A DNA stretch of 64,000 nucleotides from assembly GCA_037200385.1 (NCBI GenBank), contig JBBCGL010000001.1:186001-250000 (forward strand). Direction: 5' to 3'. Below are positions 7,220 through 13,561 of this stretch, one piece after another. Under the pieces are notes generated by a model. That model searched no databases and was not told the origin of the DNA. It saw only the letters and a list, made by a program, of their open reading frames with translations. How positions within the stretch are numbered: position 1 is the stretch's first letter; every line of letters begins with the position of its first letter. The translations under genes were made by a program, and so were the position numbers. The DNA comes from Rhizomicrobium sp. Its GTDB lineage: Bacteria; Pseudomonadota; Alphaproteobacteria; Micropepsales; Micropepsaceae.

Positions 7220-8158
7220 CTACTTCTTCGACCGCGGATCGTAATCCGCCTTCCACCCTTCGGCGAATTTGCGCAGCTCGGCGTCCGGGGGCTCCGGCAG
7301 GGTGACGACCAGCGTCACATAGAGGTCGCCCGCCGGGCCGCCGGCCGGCGCGACGCCTTTGCCCTTGAGCCGCAGCGTCTTGCCGCTGTTCGAACCGGGC
7401 GGCAGGTTCAGCTCGACCGTGCCGCCGCCGGGCGTCGCCACCGGCACCTTGCCGCCCAGCACCGCCTCCTTCAGCGTCACCGGCAGATCCATGCGGATGT
7501 CGTTGCCCTCGCGGGTCATCGCGGGATGCGGCGCGACCTTGAGGTCGATCAGGATGTCGCCCGGCGGCCCGCCATTGCGCCCCGCGCCGCCGCGGCCCTT
7601 CACGCGCACCTGCTGGCCGTCCTTCACGCCGACCGGGATCTTGACGTCGATCTGCTCGCCGTTCGGCATCATCACGCGGCGTGTGCCGCCCTTGATCGCC
7701 TCGTCGAAGGAGATCGTGGTCGCGACCGCGAAATCCTCGCCGCGCGCCGGCGCCCTTGCACGCCGGCCGCCGAACAGGTCGGAGAACAGGTCCTCGGCGC
7801 GGAAGCCTTCCGCCTGCTCGGCGCCCGGCGCGTTGTCCCAGGTGAAATGGAAATCGCCCGGCCCTTGGCCGGCCCGACCGCCGAACGGTCCGCCCTGGAA
7901 CCCGCCGCCGCCCTGGCGCGGATCGAAGCCGCGCGGATTGCCGGCCGCGTCGATCTCGCCGGCGTCGAATTTCGCGCGCTTCGCCTTGTCGCCCAGGACG
8001 TCATAGGCGCCCGAGATCTCCTGGAACTTCGCCTGGGCCTTCTTGTCGCCTGGATGGGTGTCGGGATGATGCTTCTTGGCGAGATTGCGGAAGGCCTTCT
8101 TGATCTCGGCCTCGCTCGCGGTCTTGGCCACGCCCAGGATGTCGTACGGATCGCGCAT
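7220..8158 (-). CDS. DnaJ C-terminal domain chaperone (CbpA-like)
   Basis: 312 residues. An N-terminal J domain (residues 1-66) has the HPD motif (KHHPDTH) that stimulates DnaK. A Gly/Phe-rich linker with FGGR repeats follows, then the two beta-rich substrate-binding domains (ATTISFDEAIKGG; LPVTLKEAVLGG). The four-Cys zinc finger of DnaJ itself is absent, so this is a class B J-protein of the CbpA type. It acts in the cytoplasm on protein folding, possibly at the nucleoid. A TATATT sequence on the minus strand near 8200 could be its -10 element. Confidence 0.9.
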   Translation of the reverse strand: MRDPYDILGVAKTASEAEIKKAFRNLAKKHHPDTHPGDKKAQAKFQEISGAYDVLGDKAKRAKFDAGEIDAAGNPRGFDPRQGGGGFQGGPFGGRAGQGPGDFHFTWDNAPGAEQAEGFRAEDLFSDLFGGRRARAPARGEDFAVATTISFDEAIKGGTRRVMMPNGEQIDVKIPVGVKDGQQVRVKGRGGAGRNGGPPGDILIDLKVAPHPAMTREGNDIRMDLPVTLKEAVLGGKVPVATPGGGTVELNLPPGSNSGKTLRLKGKGVAPAGGPAGDLYVTLVVTLPEPPDAELRKFAEGWKADYDPRSKK

Positions 8159-8223: not shown

Positions 8224-8796
8224 TTAAGGGCTTGGTTTGGCGGGTACCGGCACGAGAGGCCCGCCCAGCTTCGCCAACCGGGCTTTCGCCTCCGGCACCC
8301 CGCGCGCCGCCGCGTCGGTATAAAGCGTCCGCGCGAAGCCGAGATTCTTCTCGACCAGCGTGCCGTCCTCATAGAACACGCCCAGCCTGTATTCCGCGAT
8401 CGGGTGATGCGCCGCCGCCGCCTGGGTCAGCCAGGGCAGGGCGGCCTTGGGATCGGGCTCGCCCGCCTCGCCGTTCAGCAGCATCTCCGCCAGGTCGTAT
8501 TGCGCGGTGGGCAGCCCTGCCTCGGCGGCGCGCGCCAGCACGTCCTCGGCGGCCTTGGGATCTTTCGGCGTGCCGAGCCCGCGGCGCAGCATCAGCCCTT
8601 CGTTGCGCATCGCCGCTACGTCCTCGCCGTCGATCGACTGGAAGGTCTTGAACGCCTCCTCATAGCGCCCGGCGTCATAGGCGGCGAGGCCCTTGTCGAA
8701 GATCGATTGCAGTTCCCCCGTGTCGTGCACGACGGCGCAGCCGGCGAGCACGAGGGAGAGACAGAGGCCGGCGAGGATCGGTGCGAAGCGGGTCAT
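8224..8796 (-). CDS. Sel1-repeat lipoprotein
   Basis: 190 residues with a lipoprotein signal ending in the lipobox LAGC (about residue 19), then two to four Sel1/TPR-like repeats (AAMRNEGLMLRRGLG, AQYDLAEMLLNGEAG, AEYRLGVFYEDGT). Sel1 repeats usually scaffold protein-protein contacts. Its first codon overlaps the stop of the upstream SGNH hydrolase gene (ATGA at 8793-8796), so the pair is translationally coupled and probably works at the same envelope site. Confidence 0.82.
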   Translation of the reverse strand: MTRFAPILAGLCLSLVLAGCAVVHDTGELQSIFDKGLAAYDAGRYEEAFKTFQSIDGEDVAAMRNEGLMLRRGLGTPKDPKAAEDVLARAAEAGLPTAQYDLAEMLLNGEAGEPDPKAALPWLTQAAAAHHPIAEYRLGVFYEDGTLVEKNLGFARTLYTDAAARGVPEAKARLAKLGGPLVPVPAKPSP

Positions 8797-10154
8797 CGTG
8801 GATACAGATCATCGGTCCAGCCGAGGCTTTTGGCCAGAGCCTGTCCGGTGCGGCGATAGCCGCGCATGGTCATATGCGTGAGATCGCCGCCGATCAGCAC
8901 CGGATCGCTGAAGGCCCAGCCATAGGAACCGCCGGGGCCGCCCATATAGTCCTGCCAGTCCCACGCCACGCAACCGAAGCGGGCACCGATCTCCGCCTGC
9001 GCCTGCGCGATCCGGCGGTGGATGCGGGCGAAGCGCAGATAGTCGGTCCCGGTCTCGCCGCGCCGCGCCAGCAGCACGCCGCGATCCGGCGGCCCGACCA
9101 GCAGGCAGGAGGCTCCCGGGAACACGCTGCGCAGATTGGTCAACGCCTTGTTCAGCAGCCCGGCGTATTTCGCGGCGTCGAAATTCGGATCGCTGCCCTC
9201 ATTGGTGCCGTATTCCAGCGCGACCGCGTCATAGCTCTCGCCATGCAAGGCATCGCCGATCGCCGCCGGATCGGCATTGGCCCAGCCGCGCACGGTGGAA
9301 GAGGGCAGGCCGAACACGTCGAAGGTCACCAGCGGCGGCGCGATGCGGTCGAGCAGGAAGCCTTCGAGCACCACCTGGCCCGCGCTCACCCGCAGCTTCA
9401 CCGTCGCGATCGGCGCATCGGCTTCGATCGTCGCCAGGGCGCTGCCATTGCCGCCCGGCAGGGCGAGCACCTCCTCCGGCCCGTCATTCACCGATACGGT
9501 TACGGCGGCATCGGCCAATGGCCGGTAGACGAGCTGCAGCCGCTTGAGATCGCTCTCGCCGTGCCCATCGCGGAAATCGAGCCACAGATAGCTTTCGGGT
9601 CCCGCCGCCGCGACGCGGTTGGTGAGCGCCGGTCCGGTCGCCAGCGGCGCCGGTGCGGTGAAGGCGAGCGCCGTCGACCAGCCGGTCCCGATGCAATAGG
9701 CATGCAGCGTCGGCAGCCGCACATTGGCGCGCCCCATGGTCGGCGGCAGGAAGCGCGTGCCGACCGTCTCGCCATGCGCCGCGATGGCGCCGCTGAGTTC
9801 CGCCATGAACGGCCCCGCCGCGATATGGCTGTCGCCCCAGACGGCGATGCGCCGGGCCCGCGGCTGCGTGCCGTCGCGCAGCGCGAACGCAGGCAGCTTC
9901 GCCAGGTCCAGCACCGGCGGTTCGCGCCGCGCCGGAATCGCCAGCGCACCGAGTTCCGCCTGCGTTGGCATGAGCGTGTTGGGCGGCGGCGCATGCGCCA
10001 GCGCCGGCGGTCGCACCGGCTGCGGCGGCGGCGCATTGGGGCAGGCGAGATCGGAGACATGCGACGCGGACACGAACGTCGCGGCCCGTGCCGCCGGCGC
10101 CGCGAACATCGCAACCGTCAGGCCGGCCAGCAGGACACGCCGAAGCGCACGCAC
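8793..10154 (-). CDS. Exported SGNH/GDSL hydrolase
   Basis: A protein of about 453 residues with an N-terminal signal peptide (LLAGLTVAMFAAPAARA) and a long C-terminal SGNH esterase domain: block I in VWGDSHIAAG, a YGTNEGSD segment corresponding to block III/oxyanion, and the DLTH motif as block V. The domain is split by a beta-rich insert. Such YGTNE-type enzymes include O-acetyl esterases for peptidoglycan or polysaccharide. No ATG fits the signal peptide, so GTG at 10154 is proposed; ATG at 10308 would force translation through a family A repeat. It lies between an acyltransferase fusion and a Sel1 lipoprotein and is coupled to the latter. Confidence 0.78.
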   Translation of the reverse strand: MRALRRVLLAGLTVAMFAAPAARAATFVSASHVSDLACPNAPPPQPVRPPALAHAPPPNTLMPTQAELGALAIPARREPPVLDLAKLPAFALRDGTQPRARRIAVWGDSHIAAGPFMAELSGAIAAHGETVGTRFLPPTMGRANVRLPTLHAYCIGTGWSTALAFTAPAPLATGPALTNRVAAAGPESYLWLDFRDGHGESDLKRLQLVYRPLADAAVTVSVNDGPEEVLALPGGNGSALATIEADAPIATVKLRVSAGQVVLEGFLLDRIAPPLVTFDVFGLPSSTVRGWANADPAAIGDALHGESYDAVALEYGTNEGSDPNFDAAKYAGLLNKALTNLRSVFPGASCLLVGPPDRGVLLARRGETGTDYLRFARIHRRIAQAQAEIGARFGCVAWDWQDYMGGPGGSYGWAFSDPVLIGGDLTHMTMRGYRRTGQALAKSLGWTDDLYPR

Positions 10155-10175
10155 GGCAAGGCGCCAGCCGCGCTT

Positions 10176-10302
10176 GTCATGGCCCGCGAATGCGGGCCAC
10201 CCAGGTGACGCCCCGCACTGCTTTGGGAGATTTCGCGCAGCCAATTTTTCAACACCAACAAACAGCAGCGGGATGGCCCGCTGACGCAGGCCGCGACACC
10301 GG
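10176..10302. repeat. MITE-like element, family A, second copy
   Basis: The left arm (10176-10204) is identical over 29 bases to the one at 3570. The right arm (about 10273-10302) is a degenerate inverted copy, and total length (127 bp) matches the first element (124 bp). It sits between the acyltransferase fusion and the SGNH hydrolase gene. Confidence 0.7.
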
Positions 10303-10330
10303 ATCATAGCGGGTCCAGGCCGTCCCCGCC

Positions 10331-12769
10331 TTAAATCCCTGCGAGCTCCAGCGGCAGGCCCTTGGCCTTGAGCAGCTTCAGATGCTTCGCCCGGACGCGC
10401 TTTCCATACACGCCGTCCCGCGGCAGGCCCAGCATCGCTTGCAGATCGCGGACGACGTCGCCGCGCTCGGAGAGATGGAAGCGCTGCGCCAGCACGCTCT
10501 GCGGCGTGAAGGTGGTGCGCGTCGCCATCGGCGGCTTGCCGACGATGCCGGTGCAGCGCCAGGCCGCATAGCCCGCCGCGGCCTGCCGCGTGCCGTCTGG
10601 GCGCGTCCAGCCCTGGGTCGAGATGCGGTTGGCGACCGCGATCTGCTGCGCCGGCGTCGCGCCGCCCGGCACCGGTGCGAACGCGGTCCCGCCCCAGGCC
10701 GCCCAGGCGCCGGCATCGATGCCCAGGCCGCCGCCATAGCGCCCGACATTCGTCCAGTTCGCGTTGGTCTCGCAGACCGCCATCTTCTGCCAGAAGACGT
10801 CCGGCGCCGCCGGTTGCGGATTGCGCACCAGGGTCGGCGACAGGTCGCCCGGTGCATAGGTATAGGGCGCGATCGGCCGCGCCGCCGCCGCTGCGCTCAG
10901 GTGCCCCGCGCGCAGGATCTCGGCGACATACATGCGCTGTCCGGCCGGCGTCAGATGCACGCCGTCGGAGACGAAGAAGTCCGGCTGGCCCTCCGACACG
11001 GCGCGCCAGTCGGCGATGGCGACATTGGGATAGCTCGCGGCGATCTCGTCGATCAGGTCGTTGTTGGCCTCCATCCAGCGCCGCGGCACATGGGTGTTGA
11101 CCAGGATGACGCGCTTGGCGCCGGCGAGCAGGCCCAGGATCTCGCGCAGCTGCGCCTCGGTGGCGTAGCCGTTGGTTCCCAGATGCACCAGCACCACCGG
11201 CGTCAGCGCATGCGCCTTCGCGAGAGTCTTGATCTGGCCGAGGATGCTCGCCGTCTGCCAGCCCATGGTCGCATAGACCTTGGCGCCCGGCAGCATCCGG
11301 ATGAGCAGTGGGCTCGATCCCAGCAGCACGGAGTCGCCCACCGCCGTCAGGTCCGCGCCGGTGAAGCCGCCCGGCGCCTGCGCCTGGGCGGGGATCGGCG
11401 GCAGGCTCGGTGCCGTGATAGGCTTGGCCGGCGCCGCGGCGGCGGCGGCCAGGCCGAGCGCGTCGCGCACATCCTGTGACGGCCCGACCCGCGACGGCGC
11501 CAGCAGCAGGATCGCCGCCACCGCCGCGAGCGTCGCGCCGCCCGCCAGCAGCGCCAGCCGCATCTGCCGCAGTGCCGCCGGGCGCAGCGACGAGGCCTGC
11601 AGGGCCCACCACATCCGCTCGATCGCGCCTTGGCGGATCGGCATTTCGAGATAGCGGTAGGACAGCGCCGCGATCCCCAGCGTCAGCCCCATGCGCAGCG
11701 CGAAGAGTTCCGTGCCGTCCAGCCGCACATCGAGGTCCGGCCGCGTCAGCATGAAGATCGGCCAGTGCCACAGATAGATCCCGTAGGAACGCTCGCCGAT
11801 CCAGCGCAGCACGCCGGTATCCAGCCAGCGCCCGAAGGGCGAGCCGCGCCGCGTCGCCGCCGCGATCAGCACGACGCTCACCCCGGCCGACAACAGGAAG
11901 CCCCAGGGATAAAGCCACGCCGTCTCCTCGCCGAGCCGCGTGAACAATGCGGTCATCGCGACCAGCGCCAGCAGGCCCAGCGCGAAGACGCCCTCGCCCT
12001 CCGCCGGATTGGCGCTCTGCGTCTGGCGTTCCGGCCGCCACAGCAGCCCCAGCACCGCGCCGATCAGCAGCGCGAAGCCATGCGTGTCGGTCCCGAAATA
12101 GAGCCGGCTCGGATCGCCCTGGTCGGGATAGCCCAGCCGCGCCGCCAGCACCGCCATCCACACCGCGCCCGCCGCCGCCAGCAGGCCGGCGCCCAGTGCC
12201 GCGCCCCTGCGACCGATCCGCGGCAGGGCGAAGTAGAGCAACGGCGCCCAGACGATGTAGAACTGCTCCTCGATCGCCAGCGACCACAGATGTTGCAGCA
12301 GCGGCGGCCGCCCCATCGCCTCGAAGTAAGAGGTCTGGGCCGCGATCATCTCCCAATTCGTCATGTAGAAGAGCGATGCGACCGTGTCCCAGCGCAGCCG
12401 GGGCAGGGCGTCGGGCGCAAGGACAAACGCCGCCAGCACCGCCGCCGCCGTCATCGCCCAGGAAGCCGGCAGCAACCGCTTGGCCCGCCGCGTATAGAAC
12501 CGCGCCAGCCCGATCCGGCCGCGCTTTTCGCTCTCCCCGGCCAGCAGGCCGGTGATCAGGAAGCCGGAGATCACGAAGAACAGGTCGACGCCGAGATAGC
12601 CGCCCCGCGCCCAGGCGACATCGGCGTGGAACAGGCAGACCGCGAGCACCGCGATCGCCCGCAACCCGTCCAGTCCGCTCAGCCGCGTCTGCGCCGGTGC
12701 CTGCACCGCGGCGGGCGCAAGCGTCCGCAGGCCGCCGCCGCCCGCGAACCTGTCGAATGCGTATTTCAT
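10331..12769 (-). CDS. Acyltransferase-SGNH-Rpf-like fusion protein
   Basis: An 812-residue membrane protein. Residues about 25-400 form an acyltransferase-3 domain with some ten membrane segments and the family's catalytic His in CLFHADVAW followed by GGYLGVDLFFVISGFLI. An SGNH domain follows, as in OatA-type O-acetyltransferases: GDS at about 477, HLGTN, and DGVHLTP near 603. Unusually, the C-terminus adds a resuscitation-promoting-factor-like lysozyme-fold module (about 660-740: CETNANW with a Glu at the catalytic position about 666, then YGGGLGID, GWTR, YAAWRC) and a peptidoglycan-binding-like tail (about 750-805). The SGNH and Rpf modules should face the periplasm. It may acylate and cleave or anchor to peptidoglycan; the combined function is inferred. 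Confidence 0.85.
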   Translation of the reverse strand: MKYAFDRFAGGGGLRTLAPAAVQAPAQTRLSGLDGLRAIAVLAVCLFHADVAWARGGYLGVDLFFVISGFLITGLLAGESEKRGRIGLARFYTRRAKRLLPASWAMTAAAVLAAFVLAPDALPRLRWDTVASLFYMTNWEMIAAQTSYFEAMGRPPLLQHLWSLAIEEQFYIVWAPLLYFALPRIGRRGAALGAGLLAAAGAVWMAVLAARLGYPDQGDPSRLYFGTDTHGFALLIGAVLGLLWRPERQTQSANPAEGEGVFALGLLALVAMTALFTRLGEETAWLYPWGFLLSAGVSVVLIAAATRRGSPFGRWLDTGVLRWIGERSYGIYLWHWPIFMLTRPDLDVRLDGTELFALRMGLTLGIAALSYRYLEMPIRQGAIERMWWALQASSLRPAALRQMRLALLAGGATLAAVAAILLLAPSRVGPSQDVRDALGLAAAAAAPAKPITAPSLPPIPAQAQAPGGFTGADLTAVGDSVLLGSSPLLIRMLPGAKVYATMGWQTASILGQIKTLAKAHALTPVVLVHLGTNGYATEAQLREILGLLAGAKRVILVNTHVPRRWMEANNDLIDEIAASYPNVAIADWRAVSEGQPDFFVSDGVHLTPAGQRMYVAEILRAGHLSAAAAARPIAPYTYAPGDLSPTLVRNPQPAAPDVFWQKMAVCETNANWTNVGRYGGGLGIDAGAWAAWGGTAFAPVPGGATPAQQIAVANRISTQGWTRPDGTRQAAAGYAAWRCTGIVGKPPMATRTTFTPQSVLAQRFHLSERGDVVRDLQAMLGLPRDGVYGKRVRAKHLKLLKAKGLPLELAGI

Positions 12770-12937: not shown

Positions 12938-13561
12938 ATGAGCGACATCGGCGGACCCATCGACGACGGCGGCATTGCGGGCAAGGGCGATCCCTTCGCC
13001 CTGTTCGATGCCTGGATGGCCGAAGCCAGGAAGGCAGAGCCCAACAATCCCGACGCCATGTCGCTCGCGACGGTGGACGGCGAGGGCCGCCCGAACGTCC
13101 GGATGGTACTGCTGAAGGAGGCGAAGAACGGCAGCTTCGTCTTCTACACGAACTACGAGAGCGCCAAGGGCGTCGAGCTGGTCGGCCAGCCTCATGCAGC
13201 CCTCTGTTTCCATTGGAAGAGTCTGGGCAAGCAGGTCCGCATCCGCGGCGGCGTCGCCAAGACGGCCGCCGACGAATCCGACGCCTACTTCGCCACCCGC
13301 CCGAAGGACAGCCAGATCGGCTGCTGGGCCTCGGCCCAGTCGCGGCCGATGACCGGCCGCTGGGCCTTCGAGAAGGAGATCGCGCGCTACGCCGCGCAAT
13401 ATGCGCTGTCCAAGGTGCCGCGCCCGCCCGGATGGGGCGGCTTCCGCGTCACGCCCTTCGAGATCGAGTTCTGGCGCGACCGTCCCTTCCGCCTGCACGA
13501 CCGGCTGGTCTATCGCCGCGCCGGCGCAGCGCCCTGGACGACCGAGCGGCTCTTTCCCTGA
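12938..13561 (+). CDS. pdxH: Pyridoxamine 5'-phosphate oxidase
   Basis: A 207-residue FMN enzyme oxidising pyridoxine/pyridoxamine phosphate to pyridoxal phosphate. FMN-binding RMVLLKEA (with [10 protein letters not shown]) and the C-terminal [13 protein letters not shown] plus [10 protein letters not shown] substrate segment are typical and complete. Its stop overlaps the start of the following cation efflux gene by one base (TGATG), indicating translational coupling. No strong ribosome site precedes the ATG. Confidence 0.95.

Follow-up and report, generated by a model that had tools for sequence, protein, structure and literature searches.

The window, a 64,000-nucleotide stretch of the Rhizomicrobium sp. 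contig JBBCGL010000001.1, carried a gene for an 812-residue protein on its minus strand. The protein was composed of an acyltransferase-3 (AT3) membrane domain, an OatA-type SGNH domain, an Rpf-like module, and a C-terminal tail, and its gene was followed by that of an Ape1-like SGNH esterase (Table 1). The first-pass annotation had described a fusion of acyltransferase, SGNH, and Rpf parts without giving a strand, and the fusion was confirmed as a single stop-free frame in a genome assembled as one contig of 5,008,785 bases. Two full-length orthologs from the same genus (G101 and G022), encoded on JADHVO010000007.1 and JAFEEQ010000019.1, both from metagenome assemblies, were 59–60% identical to the window protein and had the same flanks. 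The protein domains, with the exception of the tail, each belong to known families, and their combination appears to be new. Searches of an open-access library gave no description of the fusion, which is weak evidence of novelty. A promoter scan found none, and a terminator scan gave 3 hits against 2.8 expected by chance.

Table 1. Features of the locus, in positions of the window.
Feature	Positions	Strand	Evidence
Fusion gene, AT3 / OatA-type SGNH / Rpf-like module / tail, 812 aa	10331..12769	-	ORF, Pfam, orthologs in G022 and G101
AT3 membrane domain, residues ~29–384	11618..12685	-	PF01757, 120.2 bits; 61–67% identity across three members
OatA-type SGNH domain, residues ~470–622	10904..11362	-	Matches to 6vjp and 6wn9; blocks invariant in three members
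Rpf-like (Transglycosylas) module, residues ~655–740	10550..10807	-	PF06737; RpfB, RpfC, RpfE; Cys666 and Cys739
GAG codon of Glu667, at the position of RpfB Glu292	10769..10771	-	GAA in G101, GCG (Ala) in G022
C-terminal tail, residues ~752–812	10334..10516	-	Peptidoglycan-binding likeness by motif only; 61–64.5% conserved in three members
Ape1-like SGNH esterase gene, 453 aa, GTG start inferred from orthologs	8793..10154	-	PDB match, PF13472
Sel1-repeat gene, left edge of insertion	8224..8796	-	PF08238, 64.1 bits; nearest upstream neighbour of pdxH in 25/30 loci
DnaJ-type chaperone gene, conserved neighbour	7220..8158	-	PF00226, PF01556
pdxH, right edge of insertion, divergent	12938..13561	+	PF01243, PF10590; in 66/69 genomes of the genus

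The Acyl_transf_3 match of the membrane domain extended over residues 31–369. The best NCBIfam match of this part was the equivalog SucT, which at 87.2 bits lay far under its cutoff of 1275. A simple hydropathy scan gave seven membrane segments in the protein, against an expectation of 11 for AT3-SGNH proteins, and located a hydrophobic segment at residues 405–423, ahead of the SGNH domain.

The SGNH domain matched the PDB entry 6wn9, presumably S. aureus OatA and the same protein as 6vjp, with an E-value of 2.6e-18. Its match to 6vjp itself had an E-value of 8.9e-18, so the earlier description of the protein as OatA-like was right, and stronger than it had been stated. The entry 6VJP is named as S. 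aureus OatA in a passage of PMC9487903. A profile of the three members matched 6vjp at 9.3e-21 and S. pneumoniae OatA (5ufy) at 4.1e-7, and an ortholog without the Rpf module, from another genus of the same family (G460), matched 6vjp at 1.9e-17. The Pfam match of the window protein to Lipase_GDSL_2 (22.2 bits) was under the cutoff of 32.9. Residues Ser480, Gly503 (presumed block II), Asn533, Asp602, and His605, which form the presumed SGNH catalytic blocks, were invariant in the three members.

A comparison with nine further AT3-SGNH proteins from the order, hand-picked from 22 with extracted frames, gave the PF19040 SGNH domain in all nine (109–195 bits). PF19040 had no match in the window protein, G022, or G101 at E<=10, nor in G460 at E<=0.01, and the one PF19040-type AT3-SGNH protein tried against the PDB had no match at E<=1. 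Among the matches listed from an order-wide search with the whole protein, SGNH-domain matches came, besides the window, only from G101, G022, and G460. The remaining listed matches covered the acyltransferase part, some of them extending to residue 441, with the exception of a 28% match to residues 680–761 in a frame with five stops. A search of the class sample with the SGNH part gave matches in 3 of 385 genomes: the window genome, G101, and a third in which the match was weak and held a stop. The transferase was therefore classed by homology as OatA-type, with an AT3 domain and an OatA-type SGNH domain, and the membrane enzyme probably acetylates the cell wall. It resembled OatA of S. aureus and S. 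pneumoniae in this architecture and in the presumed catalytic blocks, whereas it differed in being alphaproteobacterial, in carrying the Rpf module and the tail, and in being paired with an Ape1-like gene. The AT3 domain was also shared with OafA/OafB-type AT3-SGNH proteins, but the window protein lacked the PF19040 match, in which OafA and OafB are presumed to share.

The partner gene encoded a protein with a PF13472 match of 33.5 bits, just over the cutoff of 32.9. Residues 190–444 were aligned with residues 135–368 of 4k3u (1.1e-10), which has the same sequence as 4k40, 4k7j, and 4k9s; 4K7J is named NmApe in an excerpt of PMC6174289. The Ser block was outside the NmApe-aligned stretch and was present by motif (GDSH at 107). 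The GDSH, YGTN, and DLTH blocks were retained in all four partner orthologs, and the partner gene was found in every one of the four genomes with the transferase. The two genes were separated by 15 bases in G022, 9 bases in G101, and 176 bases in the window if the GTG at 10154 is the start. Within this window gap (10154..10331) there was a short stretch resembling a stem-loop (10283..10266), which may belong to a small insert.

The two genes look like an O-acetylation/de-O-acetylation pair, in which the partner probably strips the acetyl groups that the transferase would add. The arrangement was similar to that of the PatA/PatB/Ape1 cluster of Neisseria and other bacteria, where an O-acetyltransferase gene also adjoins an Ape1-like esterase gene. 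In contrast to that cluster, a single AT3-SGNH chain stood here in place of the MBOAT protein PatA and PatB. The one-contig genome of the window had no match to MBOAT (PF03062, the PatA family), for which 3 of 14 control genomes were positive.

The Rpf-like module was matched by the Transglycosylas family PF06737 with 45.2 bits at residues 655–721, above the cutoff of 27, and the corresponding scores of G022 (43.1 bits) and G101 (55.4 bits) were also over the cutoff. These scores were lower than most of those of eight viral relatives (51.4–111.2 bits). The PHROGs "transglycosylase" family matched with 32.9 bits, and the NCBIfam equivalog RpfC, at 25.7 bits, was far under its cutoff of 200. When the C-terminal 167 residues were compared with the PDB by phmmer, RpfB was matched at 5.5e-7, and RpfC and RpfE were matched as well. 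The first-pass annotation, which had proposed an HMM search of this module, was upheld by these significant Rpf matches in both Pfam and the PDB.

The five best Foldseek matches of the module model were RpfB chains, with E-values of 0.04–0.16. The structure models, built from three sequences as input, were poor (mean pLDDT of 52.8 for the module and 41.5 for the whole protein), and the argument for the fold thus rests on sequence. Residues Cys666 and Cys739, at the positions expected for the Rpf disulfide, were invariant in the three members and may form this bond. By these comparisons, the module is assigned as a true Rpf-family member in a Gram-negative bacterium. It was similar to the actinobacterial RpfB, RpfC, and RpfE in family membership, in the Cys pair, and in the catalytic-position Glu of the window copy, whereas it was unlike them in its fusion to a membrane acyltransferase, in the replaced equivalents of Thr315 and Gln310, and in a longer Trp–Cys spacing. 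The Trp of the QGW motif was separated from the second Cys by 18 residues in the window module and by 14 in the viral protein L089, against 6 in RpfB, where the second Cys is Cys355 according to part of PMC11978375.

The cleft of the module was compared with those of nine Rpf domains, RpfB and the eight viral Rpf-like proteins, using RpfB numbering and residue roles taken from a portion of PMC11978375. The catalytic-position Glu was present in the window copy and G101, as in 9/9 domains of the comparison set, and was replaced by Ala in G022, a metagenome assembly. In the window copy it was residue 667, directly following the first Cys of the module; the presence of the Glu had been recognised correctly, but the number given earlier, 666, is that of the adjacent Cys. 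The equivalent of Thr315, which was Thr in 9/9 comparison domains, was replaced in all three members by Ala (window), Asn, and Ser (G101), the Ser of G101 being a mild change. The equivalent of Gln310 was likewise retained in none of the three members (Gly in the window copy), against 8/9 comparison domains. The equivalents of Trp297 and Trp316 were present in the window copy. At Tyr305, Asp312, and Gln347 the window copy also had the RpfB residue, but these positions varied across the comparison set and were little informative.

The module was, by mean, the least conserved domain, with identities of 44.7–58.8% among members (mean 53) against a mean of 61 for the SGNH domain; in the pair of the window and G022 the order was reversed, with 58.8% for the module and 55.6% for the SGNH domain. 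In GC content the module was 0.7 to 4.3 points richer than the remainder of the gene, a difference of no diagnostic value.

The tail had been described as peptidoglycan-binding-like, for which the support found here was weak. In the window copy, PG_binding_1 was matched with 12.0 bits at residues 771–794, under the cutoff of 23. There was no PG_binding_1 match in the tails of G022 and G101 at E<=10, and a profile of the three tails had no match in the PDB at E<=10.

In order to place the gene pair, 30 pdxH loci were fetched out of the 66 genomes with pdxH. The nearest tested gene upstream of pdxH, always divergent, was the acyltransferase in 3 loci, sel1 in 25, and dnaJ in 2, and sel1 and pdxH were separated by ~800 bases in two loci. 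Therefore, the pair lay between sel1 and pdxH in the three carriers. In G460 the same pair was found in different surroundings (L045, 4253..7838), with a transferase whose membrane and SGNH domains shared 64% and 50% identity, respectively, and which ended in a Pro/Ala-rich stretch without the Rpf module. The module has thus either been added to a pre-existing transferase–esterase pair or been lost from one, and the G460 pair constitutes a natural control without it. In a tree of PdxH, DnaJ, and Sel1 from 13 hand-chosen genomes, not all of which had all three genes, the three carriers grouped with G028, G029, and G049, apart from the other seven, with a support of 100 and inner supports of 36, 41, 72, and 99. 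G028, G029, and G049 were without the pair beside pdxH.

Across the order, the module profile detected the fusion in 3 of 96 genomes, always at one shared locus, and it is consequently no assembly accident. A fourth match, in G046, was dropped as it contained stop codons in frame. Within the genus, 3 of 69 genomes had a PF06737 score above the Pfam cutoff; a sample of 385 genomes from the class had 2, both from the window genus, and a sample of 398 from the phylum had 1, the window genome itself. These three samples overlap. The rarity of Rpf in this lineage, in keeping with the first-pass annotation, was borne out by these counts, which cover genus, order, class, and phylum samples. Weak PF06737 matches of 20.9–23.8 bits against the cutoff of 27, in G100, contig 8 of G101, G206, G252, G265, G372, and G797, were excluded from the Rpf counts. 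A contig scan with very specific fusion patterns returned only the two metagenome assemblies of the G101 and G022 proteins. Rpf was described as confined to actinobacteria in a section of a 2005 paper (PMC1084345), and a 2024 review (PMC11356341), in the part concerned, ascribed Rpf to actinomycetes, with YeaZ-type analogues named for Gram-negatives. The locus is real, rare, and more coherent than first described.

The reading favoured here, with moderate confidence, is that the protein is an OatA-kind peptidoglycan O-acetyltransferase whose Rpf module grips the glycan, with cutting not its conserved role and with an Ape1-like eraser encoded beside it. The membrane domain would pass acetyl groups over the inner membrane to Ser480 of a periplasmic SGNH domain, which would place them on the glycan strands. 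The Rpf-fold module and the tail would grip the strand and keep the transferase on its substrate. The module of the window copy may still cut strands. The Ape1-like esterase would take the acetyl groups off, and the pair would thereby set where wall-cutting enzymes can act. We infer the localisation, the binding role, and the acetylation cycle, and peptidoglycan is proposed as the substrate from homology alone.

The loss of the key Glu in G022 suggests that the module may act in wall binding instead of cleavage. The first-pass annotation had offered two roles, one protein that modifies and cuts peptidoglycan or a module that finds its target; the Glu of the window copy and G101 is consistent with the former, but the Ala of G022 and the cleft changes in all three members lean toward the latter. 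A glycan-gripping role with optional cutting is accordingly favoured on the basis of three members, which is a leaning and not a proof, since the argument for erosion of the cleft depends on these few sequences. As a counterpoint, residue Glu667, both Cys residues, and the Trp297 and Trp316 equivalents of the window copy would fit a working enzyme.

The rather unlikely alternative that best survives is a bifunctional enzyme, in which the Rpf module works as a lytic transglycosylase, one protein both acetylates and cuts, and the Ape1-like protein deacetylates ahead of the cut. The Glu and the Cys pair of the window copy and G101 agree with it, as does the physical and functional partnership of LtgA and Ape1 in Neisseria reported in part of PMC7083599. 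However, the Glu was Ala in G022 and the Thr315 and Gln310 equivalents were changed in 3/3 members. Furthermore, O-acetylation of MurNAc at C6 is stated in an excerpt of PMC1199599 to block lytic transglycosylases, so that a tethered transferase and cutter would oppose each other unless the esterase intervened.

It is distinctly improbable that a different surface glycan is the substrate of the acyltransferase, with the second SGNH protein trimming that glycan and the Rpf module serving as a wall anchor. The Gram-negative AT3-SGNH proteins OafA, OafB, and PglI do act on lipopolysaccharide or pilin glycans, according to passages of PMC9558356 and PMC9487903. Among NCBIfam models, the AT3 part scored best, although far under the cutoff, with SucT and not with an OatA model, which is also a counterpoint to peptidoglycan as the substrate. 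Against this, the SGNH domain was OatA-type and not of the PF19040 kind, the partner was Ape1-like, and the module came from a peptidoglycan-acting family. An assembly or annotation artefact, to which only the rarity of the fusion (3/96 genomes of the order) would point, can be practically discounted, as it was already refuted by three separate copies, the stop-free window frame and those of two more assemblies alike over their full length and in their flanks.

With the transferase and its gripping module as the preferred reading, the locus probably encodes a hybrid peptidoglycan O-acetylation system with an Rpf-derived module in a Gram-negative bacterium. A passage of a review places OatA in Gram-positives and PatA/PatB in Gram-negatives (PMC9487903), and Rpf was held to be actinobacterial in the available section of PMC1084345; one protein would thus break two rules. 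We tentatively propose, as a possibility that we hold short of expectation, a third Gram-negative route of peptidoglycan O-acetylation. It would rely on a transferase of the OatA type that carries its own Rpf-derived domain for reading or cutting unacetylated strands, its gene inserted together with that of an Ape1-type eraser in a genome where no PatA-like protein was detected, and the module would be an Rpf in transition from an enzyme to a wall-reading domain. Natural versions with the Glu (window and G101), without the Glu (G022), and without the module (G460) exist, and the reuse of a wall-lytic fold to direct wall modification is therefore directly testable.

The source of the module was searched for by tblastn (1e-2) in plasmids and phages, with no match. 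In the eight viral Rpf frames, one of which runs off its contig, Pfam detected no acyltransferase or SGNH domain at E<=0.01. The Rpf-like domains of these viral contigs (L088–L095) were over the Pfam cutoff in 8/8 cases, and several of them adjoined NlpC/P60, LysM, or M23 domains. The viral protein L090 also had Gly at the Gln310 position.
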